From positions 396,363-460,362 of the forward strand of contig PASR01000008.1 of the NCBI GenBank assembly GCA_002713365.1: a stretch of DNA of 64,000 nt, in the 5' to 3' direction. Each line of letters begins with the position of its first letter. Within the stretch, counting starts at the first letter, position 1. The notes under the pieces were generated by a model. It was not told the origin of the DNA. It saw nothing but the letters and a program-made list of their open reading frames with translations, and did no database searches. The position numbers were made by a program, and so were the translations under genes. Shown here in pieces: positions 7,218-17,324 of the stretch. This DNA is from Rhodospirillaceae bacterium. GTDB taxonomy: Bacteria > Pseudomonadota > Alphaproteobacteria > UBA6615.

Positions 7218-8612
7218 ATGGAAAAACCTAAAATAACCCATATACTAGCAGGTACTGCAACTATTTCCTTACCTATTTTGGTATTACTAATTTTTTTAGT
7301 AGGAATAGAAGAATTAGCTTTTAGCTCAGCAATAATAGCAGGGTTTATAGGAATTATTACATGTATAATAATTATAACCCTGCAAACTCTTAGAATAAAG
7401 AAAATACAGAACTTTGTTGAAAAAGACTTGGTTTTAAAAGAGTTGGAGATTAAGCAAACTGCATTTGACGCAGGCAGCGGTCCGATTGGTGAACTGATAT
7501 CAGCAACGCTGAGAGTTGAAAGAAAGTGGATAAACGAACGTAAAACTCTAAAAGCAGGCCTGCTATCGGCTGCTAATCTTTTCGACGCTCTTCCAGACCC
7601 TCTAGTCACTCTGGATCATCAAGCTCGCCTTGTGTATGCCAATGCTGCCGCAAGAACTTTGTTAGCGGAGAATAAACCAGATATTGATCTGCGTGGTAAT
7701 GATATATCATCCATTCTTAGACAACCACTCGTTCTTGAAGCAGTTCAAGATGTGCTAGATGGGGCAAAAACACGTTATATAGAGTTTAAATTTGCAGAAA
7801 AAATAGAACTGACTTTTGAAGCTCGTATTGAAGCGATTTCTGCAGCAGATAAGGAGGAAAATGACGCTGTTATTTTATTATTATTACGCGACGTGACCTC
7901 ACAAAAACTAAATGAAGAATCTCGGGCAGACTTTGTTGCAAATGTTAGCCATGAGCTACGGACACCATTGACATCACTAATTGGGTTTATTGAAACCTTA
8001 AGAGAATCTGCAAAAAATGATCCAAATGCCCGTGAGAGATTTCTATCACTTATGGCAACTCAATCAGATAGAATGGCGAGGCTTGTTAATGACTTACTAT
8101 CCTTATCCAGGATAGAAATGAATGTACATGATAATCCTGCCAAATCTGTAGATCTAAGAAAAGTGATAGAAAACGTAATAGATATGCTTGCCCCACAAGC
8201 CAAACAAAGAAGCATAACCATTGAAGCCGACCTTAGAAATATAACCAGCCCTATAATAGGAGATTCAGACGAACTCTTACAGTTATTTCAAAACTTGATA
8301 GAAAACTCCATTAAATACGCCAACAAAAAATCAATTGTTAGAATAACTTCTAATTGTAATATTAAAGCGTGCTCAATATCAGTAATTGACGAAAGTAATG
8401 GTATACCTAGAGAACATATTACTCGTTTAACTGAGAGATTCTATAGAATAGATACAGCACGGTCACGTGAACTCGGAGGCACAGGATTGGGTTTGGCCAT
8501 AGTTAAACATATAGTCAATCGTCATCTGGGAAAACTCAAGATAGAAAGCGTCGAAGGACAAGGAAGTACTTTTTCAGTAAGCCTTCCGATCTCTGAAGAA
8601 ACCAACTTATGA
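7218..8612 (+). CDS. phoR: PhoR, phosphate-regulon sensor histidine kinase
   Basis: Membrane histidine kinase that phosphorylates PhoB when phosphate is scarce. The 464-residue protein has two N-terminal membrane segments within about the first 55 residues, then a PAS region (about 120-220). The HisKA box is NVSHELRTPLTS with the phospho-acceptor His245, and a HATPase_c domain has its N box around QNLIENSIKYA. The G1 box reads DESNGIP (391-397) where the family normally has DxGxGI, so the first glycine is Ser393 (AGT codon). The G2 region, GGTGLGLAIVKH, is intact. PhoR lies upstream of pst rather than next to phoB. No Pho box is seen in the 139-bp gap to mutS. Confidence 0.93.
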   Translation: MEKPKITHILAGTATISLPILVLLIFLVGIEELAFSSAIIAGFIGIITCIIIITLQTLRIKKIQNFVEKDLVLKELEIKQTAFDAGSGPIGELISATLRVERKWINERKTLKAGLLSAANLFDALPDPLVTLDHQARLVYANAAARTLLAENKPDIDLRGNDISSILRQPLVLEAVQDVLDGAKTRYIEFKFAEKIELTFEARIEAISAADKEENDAVILLLLRDVTSQKLNEESRADFVANVSHELRTPLTSLIGFIETLRESAKNDPNARERFLSLMATQSDRMARLVNDLLSLSRIEMNVHDNPAKSVDLRKVIENVIDMLAPQAKQRSITIEADLRNITSPIIGDSDELLQLFQNLIENSIKYANKKSIVRITSNCNIKACSISVIDESNGIPREHITRLTERFYRIDTARSRELGGTGLGLAIVKHIVNRHLGKLKIESVEGQGSTFSVSLPISEETNL

Positions 8613-8861
8613 ATTTACCCGGTAATAAGGTAATGAAAATAGTCGGGTTATGTGTGTTGTTAAAACAACATCGGCAACACATTATTACAACATACTGCCT
8701 GTAATAGGCTTGTGATTTTACAGAAACCATTCAGAAACACAACTTCTCTAAGAAATAACCATTAGATGTTTGAAAGGGGAATTGTCCCCTGATGACAGAA
8801 CCTGTGATGGGCCAAATATTTTTATATAAAAAAGGTTTGCGTATCTCAAATAATGTGCTAA

Positions 8862-8876
8862 TGAGAATTATTATCA
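8862..8876. promoter_or_regulatory. Fur-box-like 7-1-7 inverted repeat, distal copy
   Basis: TGAGAAT-T-ATTATCA matches the 7-1-7 Fur consensus (TGATAAT-N-ATTATCA) at all but one arm base. It lies 22 bp, about two helical turns, upstream of a second perfect copy, and ends 57 bp before the porin ATG. The sequence is seen directly. Binding by Fur, or by a paralogue such as Mur or Zur, is inferred. Confidence 0.7.
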
Positions 8877-8883
8877 CTGCTAT

Positions 8884-8898
8884 TGATAATCATTATCA
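8884..8898. promoter_or_regulatory. Fur-box-like 7-1-7 inverted repeat, perfect proximal copy
   Basis: TGATAAT-C-ATTATCA is a perfect 7-1-7 palindrome identical to the classical Fur site. It ends 35 bp before the porin start codon, in the position expected for a promoter-blocking repressor site. Together with the copy at 8862-8876 it forms a tandem, same-face arrangement. Confidence 0.78.
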
Positions 8899-8933
8899 TA
8901 TCTATTAGATACTAAGCACTTGGAGATTACACG

Positions 8934-10061
8934 ATGTTAAAGAGTTCACTACTCGGGAGTACCATTCTTGCCGGAATGATTGTTTTTAGCGGAGCAGCTT
9001 CAGCTGGTTCAGTAGGCGCAGGTTCTTCTATGTTTGTAAAAATGGGTGGCACTTTCCGCCACCACCTTGCCATGCAAAGTCAAGACATAAGAGAAGGTTA
9101 TACGCGAGGATATGCTTTAAATGTTGATGAAGCTGAGCTTAAAATTTCGGCCTCAAATAAATCAGATAATGGCATCAAATACGGTATCACCGTTGAATTA
9201 AATGTTAATACTACTGATACAAAGGCCGCTGACGAAGTTTATGCTTACCTTAAAGGTGATTTTGGGCAAGTAGTAATGGGTGACCAAGACGACGTCACAG
9301 ATAAAATGGCAATTGGTGGTCATAAAGTTCTAGTCGGACGTGCTGGTTTTGATGGTGATGTAGCCGACTATTTCAACTTTGGCTCTGGTGGAACGATAGA
9401 CGGGCCAGGAGTTGATGAAACCAGCGATGCAACTAAAATTTCATATTTTTCCCCAAGAGTGAATGGATTTCAGTTTGGTGTTTCTCATACCCCTGATGAT
9501 GGAGCCAGTGGTTCTAGCTTCGGAGAAAAAGATAATGATGGTGATTATGAAAACATATGGGGCGTCGGTGGCAACTACAGTGGTAAATTTAGTGGAATGA
9601 AGGTTAAATTATCAGCTACTTATGAATTTGGTGAAAGTGAATCAAAAACTGGTGCTAAAACAGAAGGTGACCTGTCAACAATTAGCATCGGCGGTTCAGT
9701 TACATCCAATGGGTTTGGTTTTGCGGCTGGATTTGCTGATTTTGGTGACAAAGGCCAGAGCAACTCTAATATAGCCCTAGGCGAAGATTCTGGCTCACAC
9801 TGGTCTGTAGGGGCATCATATGCAAACGGACCTTATGCAATTAGTGCAGGTTACTTTGCCAGTGAAAAAGCACAGCCTTCAGGATCTGGAAGTGATACCA
9901 CCGTCGACATAATTTCTTTAGACGGCCAATATAAAGTTGCCCCTGGATATACAGTGGCAGCAAGTATTAATTTTGTTGAAGCAAAAAACATAAACGGCAC
10001 CAGCGCTGAAGTAGATAATGAAGGAACTGTTGTCATCTTAAGTAACATTTTTAAATTCTAA
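8934..10061 (+). CDS. Outer-membrane porin (general Gram-negative porin family)
   Basis: A 375-residue secreted protein with a classic signal peptide (cleavage probably after AASA, about residue 24). Many short alternating beta-strand segments rich in Gly, Asp and Ser follow, and the C-terminal NIFKF ends in the aromatic residue used by the BAM complex. It fits alphaproteobacterial 16-stranded porins of the Porin_4 type. The ATG has a good GGAG site 8 bp upstream. Two Fur-type sites precede it and a strong terminator follows, so it is a single-gene unit inside the phosphate cluster. Substrate unknown; iron-dependent regulation is inferred from the operators. Confidence 0.88.
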   Translation: MLKSSLLGSTILAGMIVFSGAASAGSVGAGSSMFVKMGGTFRHHLAMQSQDIREGYTRGYALNVDEAELKISASNKSDNGIKYGITVELNVNTTDTKAADEVYAYLKGDFGQVVMGDQDDVTDKMAIGGHKVLVGRAGFDGDVADYFNFGSGGTIDGPGVDETSDATKISYFSPRVNGFQFGVSHTPDDGASGSSFGEKDNDGDYENIWGVGGNYSGKFSGMKVKLSATYEFGESESKTGAKTEGDLSTISIGGSVTSNGFGFAAGFADFGDKGQSNSNIALGEDSGSHWSVGASYANGPYAISAGYFASEKAQPSGSGSDTTVDIISLDGQYKVAPGYTVAASINFVEAKNINGTSAEVDNEGTVVILSNIFKF

Positions 10062-10089: not shown

Positions 10090-10119
10090 AACGGCATCCG
10101 TTTGATGCCGTTTTTTTTT
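10090..10119 (+). terminator. Rho-independent terminator of the porin gene
   Basis: AACGGCATC (10090-10098) pairs perfectly with GATGCCGTT (10104-10112) around a 5-base loop. A run of T to 10119 follows. It lies 28 bp after the porin stop, so it is a textbook intrinsic terminator. Confidence 0.93.
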
Positions 10120-10132
10120 GCTATTTGAGCCT

Positions 10133-10166
10133 TAGTCATAAAAATGTAATAGAAACTTGGTATATT
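10133..10166 (+). promoter_or_regulatory. Candidate PhoB-dependent promoter upstream of the arsC remnant and aqpS
   Basis: Two heptamers, TAGTCAT (10133-10139) and ATGTAAT (10144-10150), are spaced 11 bp apart with AT-rich 4-base linkers, as in the Pho box consensus CTGTCAT-N4-CTGTCAT. A TATATT hexamer (10161-10166) starts 10 bp after the second heptamer, matching the usual Pho box to -10 distance. The heptamers carry one and two mismatches, so this is suggestive. The unit resembles the repeats before pstS. Confidence 0.5.
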
Positions 10167-10205: not shown

Positions 10206-10362
10206 ATGAATCAAGAAAAACAACATAATATATTATTTTTATGCACCGCCAATTCAGCTAGAAGTATAATAGCTGAATCGTGAAGGTAATGGTTTTTTGC
10301 GAGGATATAGTGCTGGTAGCTTGCCCGCAGAAAAAATAAATCCAGAGGCAATTAAACAGTGA
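10206..10362 (+). pseudogene. arsC: arsC remnant (thioredoxin-coupled arsenate reductase, LMW-phosphatase fold), frameshifted and truncated
   Basis: From ATG 10206 the frame reads MNQEKQHNILFLCTANSARS then IIAES and a TGA (10281-10283). This contains the CX5R active-site loop CTANSAR of LMW-phosphatase-type arsenate reductases. The homology resumes in another frame from 10285 with GNGFLRGYSAGSLPAEKINP, matching the next conserved segment (usually RAYSAGSHP). It stops at TGA 10360-10362 on the GTG of aqpS. About five residues around the frameshift and roughly 100 C-terminal residues are missing, so the enzyme is dead. arsC followed by aqpS is a known rhizobial arsenic-resistance arrangement, which supports the reading. 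Confidence 0.8.
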
Positions 10363-11030
10363 TTAATTATGATATACGGCGTCGACTAGCCGCTGAACTT
10401 TTTGGAACAATGTTATTACTAATGACTGTCGTGGGCTCAGGCATTATGGCAGAGAATCTATCTGGTGGAAATGACGCTTTATCATTATTGGGGAATACCA
10501 TACCTACAGGTTGTATACTCGTAGTTCTAATAATAATATTTGGTCCAGTATCTGGCGCACATTTTAATCCAGCCGTAACATTAATATTTTATTTACAAAA
10601 TAATTTAAAAGTTGGAGTGGCTTTAGCCTATATAGCCGTGCAAATAATTGGTGGCTTGCTGGGCACCGGTGCTGCACATTTTATGTTTGAAGAACCCTTA
10701 ATACAATTTTCAGAAAAAATTAGAAGCGGTCCTTCTCACTGGTTTTCTGAGTTTGTGGCCGCTTTCGGCTTAATTGCTACAATACTAGGAACTCTTCGCT
10801 GGAAGCCTGAAGCAGTGGCCTGGACTGTGGGTCTTTTTATAACAGCTGGGTATTGGTTTACAGCATCAACTTCATTTGCCAATCCAGCCGTAACCATAGC
10901 TCGTACAATTACAAATACATTTAGCGGAATTGCTCCGGAAAATATGCCAGCTTTTATTTTAGCTCAATTTATAGGCGCAATCATGGCTGCTGTTTTTTTC
11001 AAATGGCTGTTAGTTCCCAAAAACAACTGA
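10359..11030 (+). CDS. aqpS: AqpS-like aquaglyceroporin (MIP family)
   Basis: A 223-residue membrane channel with six hydrophobic segments and two NPA boxes, GAHFNPAV (first half) and SFANPAVT (second half). The N-terminal RRLAAELFGT and GNTIPTG segments resemble the AqpS group, which sits in arsenic operons and lets trivalent arsenic leave the cell. The start is GTG, overlapping the stop of the arsC remnant, with AGAGG 10 bp upstream; no ATG alternative exists nearby. With arsC broken, its present role may be transport of neutral solutes or of arsenite made elsewhere. It lies directly before the pst locus. Confidence 0.85.
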   Translation: MINYDIRRRLAAELFGTMLLLMTVVGSGIMAENLSGGNDALSLLGNTIPTGCILVVLIIIFGPVSGAHFNPAVTLIFYLQNNLKVGVALAYIAVQIIGGLLGTGAAHFMFEEPLIQFSEKIRSGPSHWFSEFVAAFGLIATILGTLRWKPEAVAWTVGLFITAGYWFTASTSFANPAVTIARTITNTFSGIAPENMPAFILAQFIGAIMAAVFFKWLLVPKNN

Positions 11031-11040
11031 AAATAGCATT

Positions 11041-11074
11041 ATGTCATAAAACTGTAACAAGTTTGACATAAAAG
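11041..11074 (+). promoter_or_regulatory. Pho box array (three 11-bp units) upstream of pstS
   Basis: Three consecutive 11-bp units are seen: TGTCATAAAAC (11042-11052), TGTAACAAGTT (11053-11063) and TGACATAAAAG (11064-11074). In heptamer form these are ATGTCAT, CTGTAAC and TTGACAT, each followed by four AT-rich bases, the layout of a PhoB binding array. They lie about 100 bp before the pstS GTG. Which unit pairs with the -10 element is unclear; CATAAG near 11089 is one possibility. Confidence 0.75.
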
Positions 11075-11172: not shown

Positions 11173-12198
11173 GTGTATTTAAAGACAATGTCATTTTTAG
11201 CGGCAATTTTATTTGTAGCTATTACTGCTGCGGAAGCACGGGACCAAATCCGTATCGTTGGATCATCAACGGTTTTCCCTTTTTCTACCTCAGTAGCCGA
11301 ACAATTCGGTAAGGTATCAAAATTTAAAACCCCAATTGTTGAGAGCACTGGCTCCGGCGGTGGCATGAAACTGTTTTGTGCGGGGGTTGGTCAAAAGCAT
11401 CCAGATATAACAAATTCTTCAAGAAGAATTAAAAAATCTGAGTTTAACAAATGCAATAAAAATGGCGTTGGTATAACTGAGGTAAAAATTGGTTTTGATG
11501 GGATAGTACTTGGTAATTCCAAAGCTGGTCCCGATCTTAATTTTTCTCTCAAGCATGTTTTTCAAGCGCTGGCAGCAAAGGTACCTGTAGATGGTAAGTT
11601 AATAGACAATCCTTATAAAATGTGGAGTGATATTGATCCTTCCCTGCCAAAAATAAAAATTGAGATTTTAGGTCCGCCACCAACAAGCGGCACACGTGAT
11701 GCGTTTGTAGAAATAGCCATGGAAGGTGGCGCAAAGAAGTTTCCTTCTTTGAAAGCTTTGAAAAAATCCAACAAAAAGCAATTTAAAGCCATTGCACACA
11801 CCATACGTGAAGATGGCGTTTTCATCGAAGCAGGCGAGAACGATAATTTAATTGTTCAGAAACTCCTGGCCAACCCCAAAGCCTTAGGCATCTTTGGTTT
11901 CAGCTTCCTGGATCAAAATGCAGATAAAATAAAAGGCGCAAGCATAAAGGGGGTTAGTCCTGAATTTGAGAAAATCGCTGAGGGGCAATACCCAATTTCA
12001 CGTTCCCTGTATTTTTATGTGAAACAACAACACTTAGGTGTTATTCCTGGTATTAAAGAATTTGTAAAAGAGTTCACAAAGGAAGGTACTTGGGGTATCG
12101 ATGGCTACCTTGTTGATAAGGGCCTAATTCCTTTACCAAGCGATGTACGTAAAGCAACCATGAAGGCTGCTAGAGGAATGGATACATTATCCATGTAA
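11173..12198 (+). CDS. pstS: PstS, periplasmic phosphate-binding protein
   Basis: Captures phosphate in the periplasm and hands it to PstC-PstA. The 341-residue precursor has a signal peptide ending about residue 22 (ITAAEA). The mature N-terminus is RDQIRIVGSSTVFPFS, which carries the family's phosphate-contacting GSSTVFP. STGSGGGMKLFC and TSGTRDAF loops follow. The start is GTG, chosen because GGAG lies 6 bp upstream and the next in-frame Met (residue 6) would shorten the signal peptide. A Pho box array lies upstream and a large hairpin lies between it and pstC. First gene of pstSCAB-phoU-phoB. Confidence 0.95.
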   Translation: MYLKTMSFLAAILFVAITAAEARDQIRIVGSSTVFPFSTSVAEQFGKVSKFKTPIVESTGSGGGMKLFCAGVGQKHPDITNSSRRIKKSEFNKCNKNGVGITEVKIGFDGIVLGNSKAGPDLNFSLKHVFQALAAKVPVDGKLIDNPYKMWSDIDPSLPKIKIEILGPPPTSGTRDAFVEIAMEGGAKKFPSLKALKKSNKKQFKAIAHTIREDGVFIEAGENDNLIVQKLLANPKALGIFGFSFLDQNADKIKGASIKGVSPEFEKIAEGQYPISRSLYFYVKQQHLGVIPGIKEFVKEFTKEGTWGIDGYLVDKGLIPLPSDVRKATMKAARGMDTLSM

Positions 12199-12294: not shown

Positions 12295-13677
12295 ATGAGC
12301 CCTCTAATTCTAATAGCTTTTTTACTTGTTTTTTTGGTGTTAACCTATCAATTTGGCCGTTTTCATATTTTACGTAAAGCCGGTTTACAAAAGAAAAAAC
12401 CTCACTCTCTTCCTGGCTACTACGGCACATATATAGCCCTTTTTTGTGGTATTCCATCCTTATGTATTTTTGGTTTATGGATAGGGCTAGAACCTCACAT
12501 TGTAGAGGTCTTATTATTAAATGAGATACCATCTGACCTAAAAATTTTACCCCCAGGGGAATTAAATTTATTATTAAATGAAATAAAAAATATAGCTCAA
12601 AAAAGCGAATATGTAAGCAACACTAATCCCGTTCTAATCTCTGCGGCTGAAAGATATAACGATTTACATAAAATAAGTATGATTGCTTTGGCTATATTAA
12701 TTACAGCACTGTGCGTTGGTATATTGGCCTTTGCCTTTAATAAAATTCAATTGGATTTAAAAGCCCGTCCGATAGTAGAAAAATGTATTCAGTTTATATT
12801 AGTTATTGCTTCCATTATCGCAATTATAACCACCATAGGTATTGTGTTATCTTTATTATTCGAGTCAATTAGGTTTTTTAACATTGTATCACCATTTGAG
12901 TTTTTATTCGGGATTACCTGGAGTCCACAAACCGCTCTTAGAGACGATCAAGTCGGTGCCTCTGGAACATTTGGTGCAATACCTATATTTGCCGGAACCC
13001 TATTAATTACTCTTATAGCGATGGTAGTATCAGTTCCAGTAGGACTTTTGTCAGCCACTTACATGGCTGAGTATGCATCACCAAAAGTGCGAGCAGTTGT
13101 TAAGCCCCTACTTGAAATTTTAGCAGGCATTCCCACAGTTGTTTATGGATTTTTTGCTGCACTAACGATAGGCCCGGCATTTCGAGGTTTTGGTGAACAA
13201 ATTGGGATAGGCATCGCCTCAGAAAGCGCTTTAGTGGCTGGCCTCGTAATGGGCGTTATGATTATACCATTTGTTTCATCACTTTCCGATGATGTTATTA
13301 ATGCCGTTCCACAGTCACTTAGGGACGGAGCATATGCCTTGGGAGCAACAAAGTCAGAAACAGTTCGCCAAGTTGTACTGCCAGCCGCTTTACATGGAAT
13401 AGTTGGTGCTGTTCTTCTGGCTATAAGCAGAGCTATCGGTGAGACAATGATAGTTGTAATGGCCGCAGGTTTAGCAGCCAATCTCACAGCCAATCCGTTT
13501 GAGGCGGTAACAACCGTAACAGTTCAAATTGTAACACTTCTAGTAGGCGATCAAGAATTCGATAGCGCCAAAACTTTAGCTGCATTCGCTTTAGGGTTAG
13601 TCCTCTTTTTGGTAACACTGGCACTTAATGTTTTGGCACTCATAGCAGTCAGACGATATAGAGAAGAATATGAGTGA
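12295..13677 (+). CDS. pstC: PstC, phosphate ABC transporter permease
   Basis: Inner-membrane permease of the high-affinity phosphate importer. At 460 residues it is much longer than the E. coli protein. The extra N-terminal part contains three membrane segments and a soluble stretch before the conserved permease core, as in other alphaproteobacterial PstC proteins. The core ends with the ABC-coupling EAA loop (about 345-375, DGAYALGATKSETVRQVVLP). The start ATG lies 97 bp after pstS, beyond a hairpin. The gene overlaps pstA by 8 bp, indicating coupled translation. Confidence 0.94.
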   Translation: MSPLILIAFLLVFLVLTYQFGRFHILRKAGLQKKKPHSLPGYYGTYIALFCGIPSLCIFGLWIGLEPHIVEVLLLNEIPSDLKILPPGELNLLLNEIKNIAQKSEYVSNTNPVLISAAERYNDLHKISMIALAILITALCVGILAFAFNKIQLDLKARPIVEKCIQFILVIASIIAIITTIGIVLSLLFESIRFFNIVSPFEFLFGITWSPQTALRDDQVGASGTFGAIPIFAGTLLITLIAMVVSVPVGLLSATYMAEYASPKVRAVVKPLLEILAGIPTVVYGFFAALTIGPAFRGFGEQIGIGIASESALVAGLVMGVMIIPFVSSLSDDVINAVPQSLRDGAYALGATKSETVRQVVLPAALHGIVGAVLLAISRAIGETMIVVMAAGLAANLTANPFEAVTTVTVQIVTLLVGDQEFDSAKTLAAFALGLVLFLVTLALNVLALIAVRRYREEYE

Positions 13678-14974
13678 TACATCAAAATTTAAACTCTCTG
13701 AAGCAAAACCGGATTTATCCCCCAAAAGGCTTCAAAAAAGATATAGAGCAGAGGCTCGATTTCGTCTTTACGGAATTACTGCAATTGTCTTCGCTATTGG
13801 TGTACTTGGCATTCTACTTGGTAGTATTATTTCCAGTGGAACTAGCGCCTTTATACAAACCGAAATTGCCTTAGATATAAACTTCGACGCAAACATCGTA
13901 GACCCAGAAGGGACGCGCACCAAAGAATCATTTTTAGAAGGTAATTACCGAAAACTTTGGCGTGATTCACTCTTCACATTATTTCCTGAAGTTAAAGGTC
14001 GCAAACAGAAAAGGGCTCTTTCCAAACTAATAAGCAGGGGCGCAGACCTAACATTACGTGAAAAAGTATTAAATGACCCCTCAATAATTGGCACTACTAA
14101 ACGCATCTGGGTGAAATCATCTGCCGATATAGATTCCTTGAATAAAGGCAAAATATCACGCAGTACAATCGAATCCGACAGGAGAGTTAAAAACCATCAA
14201 ATTGCATGGTTTGATAAACTCATAGATGAGAACCGCGAAAGATTAGCCTTTAACTCATCCTTATTCACTGCTGGCGATAGCCGTGAGCCTGAACAAGCTG
14301 GAATTGGTGGTGCTGTAGTTGGATCGTTTTTAACCTTAATAGTAACACTTTTGTTGTCATTTCCGATTGGGGTGATGGCTGCTGTCTATCTAGAGTCGTT
14401 CGCACCTAAAAACCGATGGACGGATATTATAGAAGTAAATATTAACAATTTAGCAGCGGTGCCTTCAATAGTATTTGGACTATTGGGACTGGCAGTATTT
14501 CTCAATTTTTTTGGAATGCCAAGATCAGCACCCATCGTAGGAGGAACGGTACTAGCACTAATGACACTGCCCACTGTCATAATAGCCGGCAGAGCCGCTT
14601 TGAAAGCCGTTCCCCCATCAATTCAAGAGGCCGCACTAGCAATGGGAGCATCTAGGCTACAAGCAGTCAGCCATCATGTATTACCTCTGGCGATGCCAGG
14701 AATATTAACAGGAACTATAATAGGTATGGCAAGAGCGCTCGGAGAAACCGCTCCCCTTCTAATGATTGGAATGGTTGCTTTTATAGTCGATATTCCTCGA
14801 GGTCTGTCTGACCCATCCACAGTGCTACCAGTTCAAATTTATTTATGGGCTGATGCACCGGAGCGCGCCTTTGTAGAAAAAACATCTGCAGCAATTATGG
14901 TGTTATTACTATTTCTAATTTTAATGAATTTAGCGGCCGTAATATTGCGTAAAAAATTTGAAAAAAGATGGTAA
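13670..14974 (+). CDS. pstA: PstA, phosphate ABC transporter permease (with N-terminal DUF3333-type region)
   Basis: Second permease subunit, partner of PstC. The 434 residues start with a charged segment and one membrane helix. A roughly 170-residue soluble region follows, of the DUF3333 type found in alphaproteobacterial PstA, and then the membrane core with the EAA loop containing ALAMGASRLQAVSHHVLPLA. The start ATG lies inside the end of pstC (8-bp overlap). A 76-bp gap to pstB holds only a 22-codon frame. Confidence 0.94.
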   Translation: MSDTSKFKLSEAKPDLSPKRLQKRYRAEARFRLYGITAIVFAIGVLGILLGSIISSGTSAFIQTEIALDINFDANIVDPEGTRTKESFLEGNYRKLWRDSLFTLFPEVKGRKQKRALSKLISRGADLTLREKVLNDPSIIGTTKRIWVKSSADIDSLNKGKISRSTIESDRRVKNHQIAWFDKLIDENRERLAFNSSLFTAGDSREPEQAGIGGAVVGSFLTLIVTLLLSFPIGVMAAVYLESFAPKNRWTDIIEVNINNLAAVPSIVFGLLGLAVFLNFFGMPRSAPIVGGTVLALMTLPTVIIAGRAALKAVPPSIQEAALAMGASRLQAVSHHVLPLAMPGILTGTIIGMARALGETAPLLMIGMVAFIVDIPRGLSDPSTVLPVQIYLWADAPERAFVEKTSAAIMVLLLFLILMNLAAVILRKKFEKRW

Positions 14975-15050
14975 TAAAATGAATGTTACCATACCTTCTA
15001 AGCTAAGAGGCATAGTTAAAGCAGACACAAATAGAGGAACCACCTAATTA

Positions 15051-15836
15051 ATGGATAATGCTGAAATTAAGTCTGAGTTACCTAACAAAGTGACCGCCGC
15101 AAATGTGGATGTCTTTTATGCTGATAAACAAGCACTAGAATCAGTTTCATTAAGCATATATGCGAATGAGGTTACATCCCTAATAGGTCCTTCTGGATGT
15201 GGAAAATCGACCTTTCTTCGGTGTTTAAATAGAATGAATGATACAATTGACAGCTGCCGTATAACTGGAGAAATATTATTAGATGGCGCTGACATATATG
15301 ATAAGAATATCGACGTAGTACAGTTGCGCGCGCGCGTTGGTATGGTTTTTCAAAAACCCAACCCATTCCCTAAATCTATTTATGAGAACGTAGCCTATGG
15401 CCCTCGTATACATGGAATGACAAAAAATAAAACGGAACTTAATGATTTAGTTGAAGCCAGTTTACACCGAGCAGGACTCTTGGAAGAAGTTAAAGATCGA
15501 CTTGATCAGCCAGGTACTAGCCTTTCTGGTGGACAACAACAAAGGCTATGCATCGCAAGAGCTATCGCTGTAAACCCTGAAGTAATTCTCATGGATGAGC
15601 CTTGCTCAGCTCTGGACCCAATAGCCACCGCAAGAATCGAAGAGTTAATGGATGAACTTCGACAAAATTACACAATTGTAATTGTCACCCATTCGATGCA
15701 ACAAGCGGCACGCGTAAGCCAGAGAACGGCTTTTTTCCACTTGGGCATCCTTGTGGAAGAGGGTGATACAGAACGAATTTTTACAAACCCTGAAAACCAA
15801 CGAACACAAGATTATATTACGGGCCGCTTTGGCTAA
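15051..15836 (+). CDS. pstB: PstB, phosphate ABC transporter ATPase
   Basis: Cytosolic ATPase that powers PstC-PstA. The 261-residue protein has Walker [10 protein letters not shown] at 46-54, the Q-loop around [16 protein letters not shown], signature [15 protein letters not shown], Walker B VILMDEP and the switch histidine in [12 protein letters not shown]. The length matches the family. A polypurine AGAGGA lies about 13 bp before the ATG, a longer spacing than usual. Followed after 32 bp by phoU. Confidence 0.97.
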
Positions 15837-15868
15837 AAACTTTTACTGTGTAAGGGGGAAAATATAAA

Positions 15869-16591
15869 ATGCCTACAGATCACAGCCATATAGTTACCGC
15901 TTATGATGAAGAACTGGCTCGATTAAGTGATTTAATAAGTCGGATAGGTGGACTAGCAGAAACTCAGTTAGAACAAGCAATCCAAGCTCTACAAAAACGT
16001 GACGCCACGCTCGCCGAAATGGCAATAGAGCATGATCATAAAATCGATCAATTACATATCGAGGCAGACGAATTGGCAATAAAGTTATTGGCCTTAAGGC
16101 AGCCAGTTGCTGGTGATTTAAGACATATAGTAACAGGCCTGAAAATAGCTCCTATAGTTGAGAGAATTGGGGACTATTCTAAAAATGTGGCAAAACGTGC
16201 TATCGCACTTAATCAGATGCCTCCAGTAAAACCTCTATATACCATTCCACGAATGGGTTACATGGTACGTGAAATGACTAAAGATGTACTTGACGCATTC
16301 GCAAATAAAGATGTTGGCAAAGCTAAAGAGGTCTGGCTGCGTGATGAAGAAGTAGATGATATGTATGACAGCTTATTTCGCGAGCTACTAACTTATATGA
16401 TGGAGGACCCACGTAATATAACACCTTGTACGCACCTACTATTTGCTGCCAGAAATATGGAACGCATAGGAGACTTAACCACTAATATAGCTGAACTTAT
16501 CGTTTACCAGGTCGATGGGGTATTGCTTGATGACAATCGCCCGAAAACTGATGAAGCCAGCGTTACGGTGGTTGAACCCGAAAACATCTGA
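15869..16591 (+). CDS. phoU: PhoU, phosphate signalling regulator
   Basis: A 240-residue all-helical protein with two PhoU repeats. The first carries VAGDLRHIVTGLKIAPIVERIGDYS and the second CTHLLFAARNMERIGDLTTNIAE, both showing the E/DxxxD-type metal-binding pattern of the family. It links the state of PstSCAB to PhoR so that PhoB stays inactive in high phosphate. GGGGG at about 15855 serves as ribosome binding site. It is positioned between pstB and phoB as expected. Confidence 0.96.
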   Translation: MPTDHSHIVTAYDEELARLSDLISRIGGLAETQLEQAIQALQKRDATLAEMAIEHDHKIDQLHIEADELAIKLLALRQPVAGDLRHIVTGLKIAPIVERIGDYSKNVAKRAIALNQMPPVKPLYTIPRMGYMVREMTKDVLDAFANKDVGKAKEVWLRDEEVDDMYDSLFRELLTYMMEDPRNITPCTHLLFAARNMERIGDLTTNIAELIVYQVDGVLLDDNRPKTDEASVTVVEPENI

Positions 16592-16610
16592 TAGACTAAA
16601 AGACTTTAAA

Positions 16611-17324
16611 ATGAATAAAAACACTAACCTAAAACCAAATATTTTAATCGTGGAAGATGAGCCCGCACTTGTTGAAATGCTTCAATATAATCTTGAGAAG
16701 GCTGCCTTTAGAACCGAGGTCGCTCGTGATGGAGAAGAGGCATTATTAGTTGTTTCAGAGACAAAACCTGATCTAGTAATATTAGATTGGATGCTCCCCT
16801 ACATATCAGGAATAGAAGTTTGTCGTCGGATTAGACGTGATCCTGAAACCCGCGACCTACCAGTTATAATGCTAACCGCCAGAGGAGAAGAAAGTGATAG
16901 GATACGTGGTTTGGAATCGGGGGCTGACGATTACGTAACAAAACCGTTTTCTCCAAGCGAGTTAGTCGCCAGGACAAAAGCAGTTATGAGACGCACCAGG
17001 CCAATATTTAATAGTGAAGCACTTACTTACGCTGATGTTCATATGGATTTATCAAGCCACAGAGTTACACGGAACGATAAAATAGTTCTGTTAGGACCAA
17101 CTGAATTTCGTTTGCTTCGCTTCCTCCTAGAAAGACCCGAAAGAGTATTTGAACGTGAGCAATTACTTGATCACGTTTGGGGGCTAGAAGCAGATATTGA
17201 ACCACGAACCGTTGACGTGCACATACGACGCCTGAGGATGGCAATGAACCAGCCAGGTGCTCCAGACCTTATTCGAACAGTGCGATCTGCGGGATATGCC
17301 TTAGAACTAAGAAATGAAGTTTAA
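16611..17324 (+). CDS. phoB: PhoB, phosphate-regulon response regulator (OmpR family)
   Basis: A 237-residue DNA-binding regulator. The receiver domain has acidic pocket E15-D16, phospho-acceptor Asp59 in VILDW, and Lys111 in YVTKPF. The C-terminal winged-helix domain has the LGPTEFRLL and RTVDVHIRRLR elements. The start ATG 16611 was chosen because it gives the usual short N-terminus before ILIVEDEP; a longer in-frame reading from 16515 would overlap phoU extensively. Binds Pho boxes such as those before pstS. Confidence 0.95.
   Translation: MNKNTNLKPNILIVEDEPALVEMLQYNLEKAAFRTEVARDGEEALLVVSETKPDLVILDWMLPYISGIEVCRRIRRDPETRDLPVIMLTARGEESDRIRGLESGADDYVTKPFSPSELVARTKAVMRRTRPIFNSEALTYADVHMDLSSHRVTRNDKIVLLGPTEFRLLRFLLERPERVFEREQLLDHVWGLEADIEPRTVDVHIRRLRMAMNQPGAPDLIRTVRSAGYALELRNEV

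Follow-up and report, generated by a model that had tools for sequence, protein, structure and literature searches.

In SAR11 marine alphaproteobacteria, Fur boxes are found before Fe3+ ABC importers of the fbpABC type and before FTR1, and these bacteria are said not to import intact organic iron complexes (PMC4771312). The SAR11 boxes before the ferric ABC transporters are of the 15-bp 7-1-7 form, the same as the sites treated below, whereas a porin with a Fur box is not named in the part of that study available, where passage of the outer membrane is described as probably passive (PMC4771312). A porin that feeds iron uptake is described in Synechocystis: Slr1908, an iron-selective porin, is bound and induced by PhoB, and this control has been demonstrated by yeast one-hybrid, gel shift and mutants (PMC11126600). 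As far as the available part of that paper goes, the porin of this report would resemble Slr1908 in feeding iron uptake and in being tied to iron and phosphate status, here as judged from sequence, but differs in its control, because Slr1908 is under PhoB and the present porin has Fur sites and a weak Pho link. The two also differ in type, Slr1908 being a cyanobacterial porin of the SLH/OprB type and the present protein a Porin_4. In Bradyrhizobium, the porin MnoP is controlled by Mur. MnoP is likewise an alphaproteobacterial porin for metal entry under a repressor of the Fur family, while its metal is manganese, its regulator is Mur and its operator has a different sequence. Fur can also act on porins in the opposite sense: according to partial accounts, OmpT of Vibrio cholerae is activated by Fur, and two Caulobacter porins fall in iron limitation and in a fur mutant.

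The locus described here lies in the window, i.e., the whole 64,000-nucleotide stretch of DNA analysed, which belongs to genome G000. It places a pair of Fur-type palindromes before a porin gene (8934-10061, + strand) in the midst of phosphate genes. The gene encodes an acidic outer-membrane porin of 375 aa (mature net charge about -21) that matches family Porin_4 (PF13609, E 9e-36).

The palindrome pair and its occurrence

Site 1, TGAGAATTATTATCA, occupies 8862-8876, and site 2, TGATAATCATTATCA, occupies 8884-8898 (both + strand), as read from the window sequence. Their starts are 22 bp apart, leaving a gap of 7 bp, and the 3′ end of site 2 lies 35 bp before the start codon at 8934. A sequence-only reading of the window had reported such a tandem pair upstream of the porin, and the exact 15-mers were located there. 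The same reading had called site 2 a perfect match to the classical Fur site, which holds for the 7-1-7 form (no mismatch) but not for the classical 19-bp Fur box, of which site 2 matches 17/19 and site 1 16/19. Against TGATAATNATTATCA, site 2 has no mismatch and site 1 has one; against TGANAATNATTNTCA, neither has any.

The sites were scored by a matrix built from 15 sites of fbp promoters only, the porin being excluded; since the training sites were picked by consensus score, the matrix owes nothing to the porin but is tied to the consensus. With this matrix, site 1 ranks first in the window (22.7 bits) and site 2 second (21.9 bits), followed by a third place at only 13.6 bits. The 15-mer of site 2 is found identically on the fbp operon promoter. 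Of the five exact TGANAATNATTNTCA matches in the whole G000 genome (2.52 Mb), two precede the porin, two fall within ORFs, and the remaining one lies between the fbp operon and an ABC ATPase gene. The G000 places with 0 or 1 mismatch to the TGANAATNATTNTCA pattern were inspected one by one, and some single sites of like score sit inside genes or at doubtful positions. Because similar scores occur within genes, single sites alone are unconvincing; the pair is convincing.

The 22-bp pair was then searched in 60 genomes, allowing up to three mismatches and using the reversed pattern as control. Matches were obtained in 9 of the 60 genomes, at 12 places that make up ten promoter regions, and the reversed pattern at the same threshold was found in none of the 60. 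A pair with zero mismatches occurs once among these genomes, before this porin. The other nine regions all adjoin iron or heme genes: the fbp operon with a first gene of the DUF4856 type in G000 and its congeners G001 and G002, DUF4856 genes in G017, G021 and G024 (assigned from the DUF4856 gene itself), feoA-feoB in G025, a TonB receptor adjoining a heme oxygenase in G049, and a PNPOx/DUF2470 gene in G023, which we take to be of the heme-utilisation type. Within G000, the only pair besides that of the porin is on the FbpABC promoter, with the identical 22-bp spacing, and the FbpA encoded there matches a solved iron-binding FbpA at E 2e-90. Single Fur-like sites are near fbpA in 4/16 fbpA loci, all four in other genera of the family, and a weaker Fur-like site (15.1 bits) precedes bfd, opposite bfr, in G000.

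Two genes of the fbp operon deserve a separate remark. The DUF4856 gene (L061:5792-7216) is the first after the fbp Fur pair and has homologs at L119, L123 and L124; in three further genomes, including one from another family, a DUF4856 gene likewise follows a Fur pair, and the DUF4856 protein is a candidate component of iron uptake. A gene of the fatty-acid-hydroxylase family lies inside the operon (L061:7290-8303), and both congeners have similar genes at the corresponding position.

The genus sample consists of G000, the genome of the window, and the congeners G001 and G002, the only ones returned by a scan of genome contigs. The porin is present in both congeners at 78% identity, and TGAGATTGATTCTCA (23.1 bits) stands before it there, with a weaker site in overlap. 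A Fur block thus stands before the porin in 3/3 genus genomes, whereas the tandem layout and the distance to the start are not kept: from strong site to start codon there are 71 and 49 bp in the window, 232 bp in one congener and 155 bp in the other. Non-conservation in close relatives, which the sequence-only reading had named as a refuting result, was not observed: the orthologous porin has a Fur block upstream in 2/2 congeners, although the exact 22-bp tandem is absent there. An alignment of the phoR-porin intergenic region between the window and the congeners did not rise above shuffles; the best intergenic match between G000 and G002 is the Fur block. Elsewhere, no site above 13.7 bits was found at six paralogous porin loci of the three genus genomes, and none above 10.1 bits at 27 porin loci of other genomes (L026-L052), which are one best match per genome at about 50% identity or less and may not be orthologs. 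Among these outside loci, L034 and L042 are truncated or partial, L040 is below the usual length, and L026-L044 sit in other gene contexts. As far as sampled, the link between Fur block and porin is a trait of the genus, and the pair is very probably a Fur operator on the porin, of a kind that the fbp operon also carries and that the genus retains as a Fur block.

A separate feature was seen in the congener porin leaders (L067:4851-5000 and L068:4866-5000), where a common stretch, absent in the window, folds more stably than shuffled sequence (z about -2.5).

The regulator and the direction of control

The Fur gene of G000 lies outside the window, some 8 kb to its left, and the nearest solved structure to its product is Fur of Magnetospirillum gryphiswaldense (chain 4ray and its relatives, E 2.7e-56). 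In the latter protein, Tyr56 and Arg57 read bases (PMC4506495). Both residues are kept in G000 Fur, while Lys15 of the M. gryphiswaldense protein is replaced by Arg; the DNA targets given in the available part of that study are feoAB1 and the Pseudomonas aeruginosa Fur box, as against a porin here (PMC4506495). The G000 Fur protein (L062) also has Cys9 and Met16, two of the three sulphur residues called unique to magnetotactic Fur (PMC4506495). The pair in common with the fbp operon, the presence of this Magnetospirillum-type Fur gene and the Fur block of the congener porins all favour Fur control of the porin, as the sequence-only reading had proposed.

Other members of the family in G000 are Irr, and Zur in two near-identical contig copies. 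Both were considered as readers of the operator and set aside: Irr is identified by its own model, and Zur adjoins znu genes, no Fur-like site above 9.5 bits being found at the scored loci of znuA and zur (L004, L107, L108 and L109). A 19.1-bit site at L002:1397-1411 was likewise rejected as an irr promoter element, as its position is at the stop codon of irr, preceding a rubrerythrin-like gene; it is either a coding by-product or a real operator. Near-identical stretches occur on two contigs at L003/L004 (znu/zur) and at L092/L098 (ribonucleotide-reductase-like), probably representing assembly redundancy.

A probable ribosome-binding site, GGAG, is read at 8922-8925 (+ strand). The transcript must include this site, so the promoter must overlap or precede the Fur block. 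A possible promoter, TTGATA-17-TAGATA (8883-8911, + strand), overlaps site 2 and is weak (8 of 12, a consensus match only); other candidates in the block, at 8861-8890 and 8871-8899 (+ strand), reach 9 of 12, again by consensus match only. In the congeners, the hexamers TTGATT-17-TAGTAT or TAATAT are placed similarly relative to the Fur block, with 8 of 12 each.

From this arrangement, the following course of events is proposed. When iron is plentiful, iron-loaded Fur dimers would lie side by side on 8862-8898, over the promoter zone, and porin expression would be low. When iron is scarce, Fur would leave, and the porin would be made along with the ferric-ion importer FbpABC; it would then admit small iron species across the outer membrane to FbpA. 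This explanation as a whole, with a tandem Fur operator, derepression of the porin together with FbpABC, and iron entry, appears quite probable, and repression rather than activation by iron-loaded Fur is likely too, if by a slightly lesser degree. Against it stand the exact tandem, which is found in one genome only, the congeners having one strong site with an overlapping weaker one, and the weakness of the promoter hexamers.

The phosphate cluster and competing explanations

The gene order is phoR, porin, aquaporin-family gene, pstS, pstC, pstA, pstB, phoU and phoB. The position of the porin between phoR and pstS, already noted from the sequence, was read again in the gene order and is kept in 3/3 genus genomes. 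On the + strand of the window, the sensor kinase gene phoR (7218-8612) matches TIGR02966 at E 1e-95 (320.6 bits, with a cut-off of 334.2); a terminator-like hairpin with a T-run lies at the end of the porin unit (10090-10112); and the aquaporin-family (MIP) gene (10359-11030), which is absent between porin and pstS in both congeners, is followed by pstS (11173-12198), by pstC, pstA, pstB and phoU (12295-16591), and by phoB (16515-17324), which matches TIGR02154 at 333.7 bits (cut-off 296.2) and whose true start is probably later than 16515. Because the hairpin at 10090-10112 ends it, the porin forms its own transcription unit by sequence. Pho boxes were scored out of 12 by the pattern TGTMAY-N5-TGTMAY. 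Clear boxes (12 of 12) stand before pstS in 3/3 genus genomes, that of the window consisting of three half-sites with an 11-bp period (11042-11069, + strand). Before the porin, the window has an 11-of-12 repeat, TGTAATAGGCTTGTGAT (8700-8716, + strand), which overlaps a small hairpin and is doubtful. G001 has two overlapping 11-of-12 repeats upstream of the porin, also with an RNA hairpin, and in G002 no Pho-box-like repeat was found before the porin. The repeats before the porin are thus imperfect, differently placed and present in 2/3 genomes. Moreover, ten places in the window reach at least 11 of 12 among about 128,000 tested, and one such repeat in a 320-bp gap is therefore only mildly surprising. 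A further 11-of-12 repeat is at 10134, and an Rfam search of the window gave no match. The interval before the aquaporin-family gene holds a remnant of a gene (10206-10361, two frames with a stop), presumably ArsC-like from its motif, which is absent between porin and pstS in both congeners.

The most trivial explanation, that the palindromes are chance occurrences in AT-rich DNA, draws on the base composition of the genome, in which the pattern with up to two mismatches occurs 419 times against 379 for the reversed control. It has to account, however, for 5 Mb of first-order Markov sequence with the same dinucleotide make-up in which no place reached 21.9 bits, for two sites within 22 bp, for a Fur block before the porin ortholog in 2/2 congeners and for the presence of the pair at iron promoters, and is hardly credible. 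If the sites are real, their reader could be Mur, a manganese-sensing relative of Fur, and the porin could serve manganese, as does MnoP of Bradyrhizobium. Among solved structures, chains 5fd5 and 5fd6 (E 2.5e-49) come second in closeness to the regulator; they are named Ferric uptake regulation protein and are taken here as rhizobial Mur. Furthermore, no Nramp importer was found in the search of G000, and manganese must therefore enter another way. Nevertheless, the nearest relative is the M. gryphiswaldense Fur, the same sites are found on FbpABC and, in weaker form, before bfd, and elsewhere they accompany FeoAB and the TonB receptor adjoining heme oxygenase. In addition, a complete ZnuA-family protein is encoded beside the znu/zur genes in G000 and each congener has one, while a second manganese-type ABC binding protein was not found. 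A manganese role is accordingly quite improbable.

With Fur as the reader, the sign of control could still be positive, the porin rising when iron is plentiful as OmpT does. The porins of Vibrio and Caulobacter mentioned above, the latter known here from a partial account, offer precedents for activation by Fur, and the Fur block of the congeners is far upstream of the start codon. In the window, however, the end of site 2 is so near the start codon that it falls where the promoter would sit, and the sites are arranged as on the fbp promoter, so that activation is distinctly unlikely. The surroundings of the gene suggest another assignment, a phosphate porin of the PhoB regulon resembling PhoE or OprP, whose Fur sites would merely modulate it. 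The conserved placement between phoR and pstS and the 11-of-12 repeats in two genomes speak for it; its own terminator, and 12-of-12 boxes that stand before pstS in all three genomes while the third has none before the porin, speak against it. So may the protein itself: PhoE and OprP have basic pores, unlike this porin, which is acidic over the whole protein and has 5 Arg, and the assignment is about as improbable as that to manganese. The iron/phosphate cross-talk that had been suggested from the position of the porin has to be set against the separate terminator, the imperfect repeats and the clear boxes at pstS; cross-talk at the porin is rather unlikely, and a Pho role for it is possible. 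Repression by iron-loaded Fur thus remains the preferred explanation.

Possible iron entry across the outer membrane

The three genus genomes encode a single TonB-receptor barrel apiece, always as the first of a set of B12-type genes and downstream of a cobalamin riboswitch; the best models for the G000 receptor are vitamin B12 receptors (BtuB), with scores below the cut-offs, and the sole Peripla_BP_2 protein is also located in the B12 cluster. No iron TonB receptor was found in the three genus genomes, only BtuB, and neither the FeoB C-domain nor FTR1 was detected in any of them. FbpABC is accordingly the only iron importer found in the searches made, although transporters outside the searched families are possible. 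Since no iron TonB receptor was found, porins are the only outer-membrane route of iron found for FbpABC, and among the genus porins examined, a Fur operator stands before this one only.

Whether the pore would suit such a role was addressed from the protein. The charge of the whole protein is -21, and acidity is common to the three porins found in G000, of which the others could pass iron too. A search of solved structures with a porin profile gave no sequence match, and an AlphaFold model from three sequences has a pLDDT of 25.8, because of which pore selectivity cannot be read from it. Tentatively, and with markedly less assurance than the repression itself deserves, the porin may let small iron species cross the outer membrane and so reach FbpA.

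Taken by its sequence, the porin would be a new target, in this lineage, of the known regulator Fur, and not a new kind of system; no Fur-controlled Porin_4 gene adjoining pho genes was found in the literature covered, i.e., open-licence papers. It is unlikely, though a little less so than activation by Fur, that a porin of general type has become the dedicated, Fur-derepressed partner of FbpABC and is also raised by PhoB thanks to its constant position beside phoR and its Pho-box-like repeat, a porin for iron and phosphate co-limitation that arose independently of the PhoB-driven cyanobacterial iron porin. Should PhoB act on the porin as well, iron and phosphate would converge on one porin for a second time, independently of the first case. 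For marine bacteria without iron TonB receptors, the available part of the SAR11 study leaves the entry of iron through the outer membrane open (“probably by passive transport”; PMC4771312). A porin with the same Fur operator as the sole iron importer found is a named candidate for this outer-membrane iron door.
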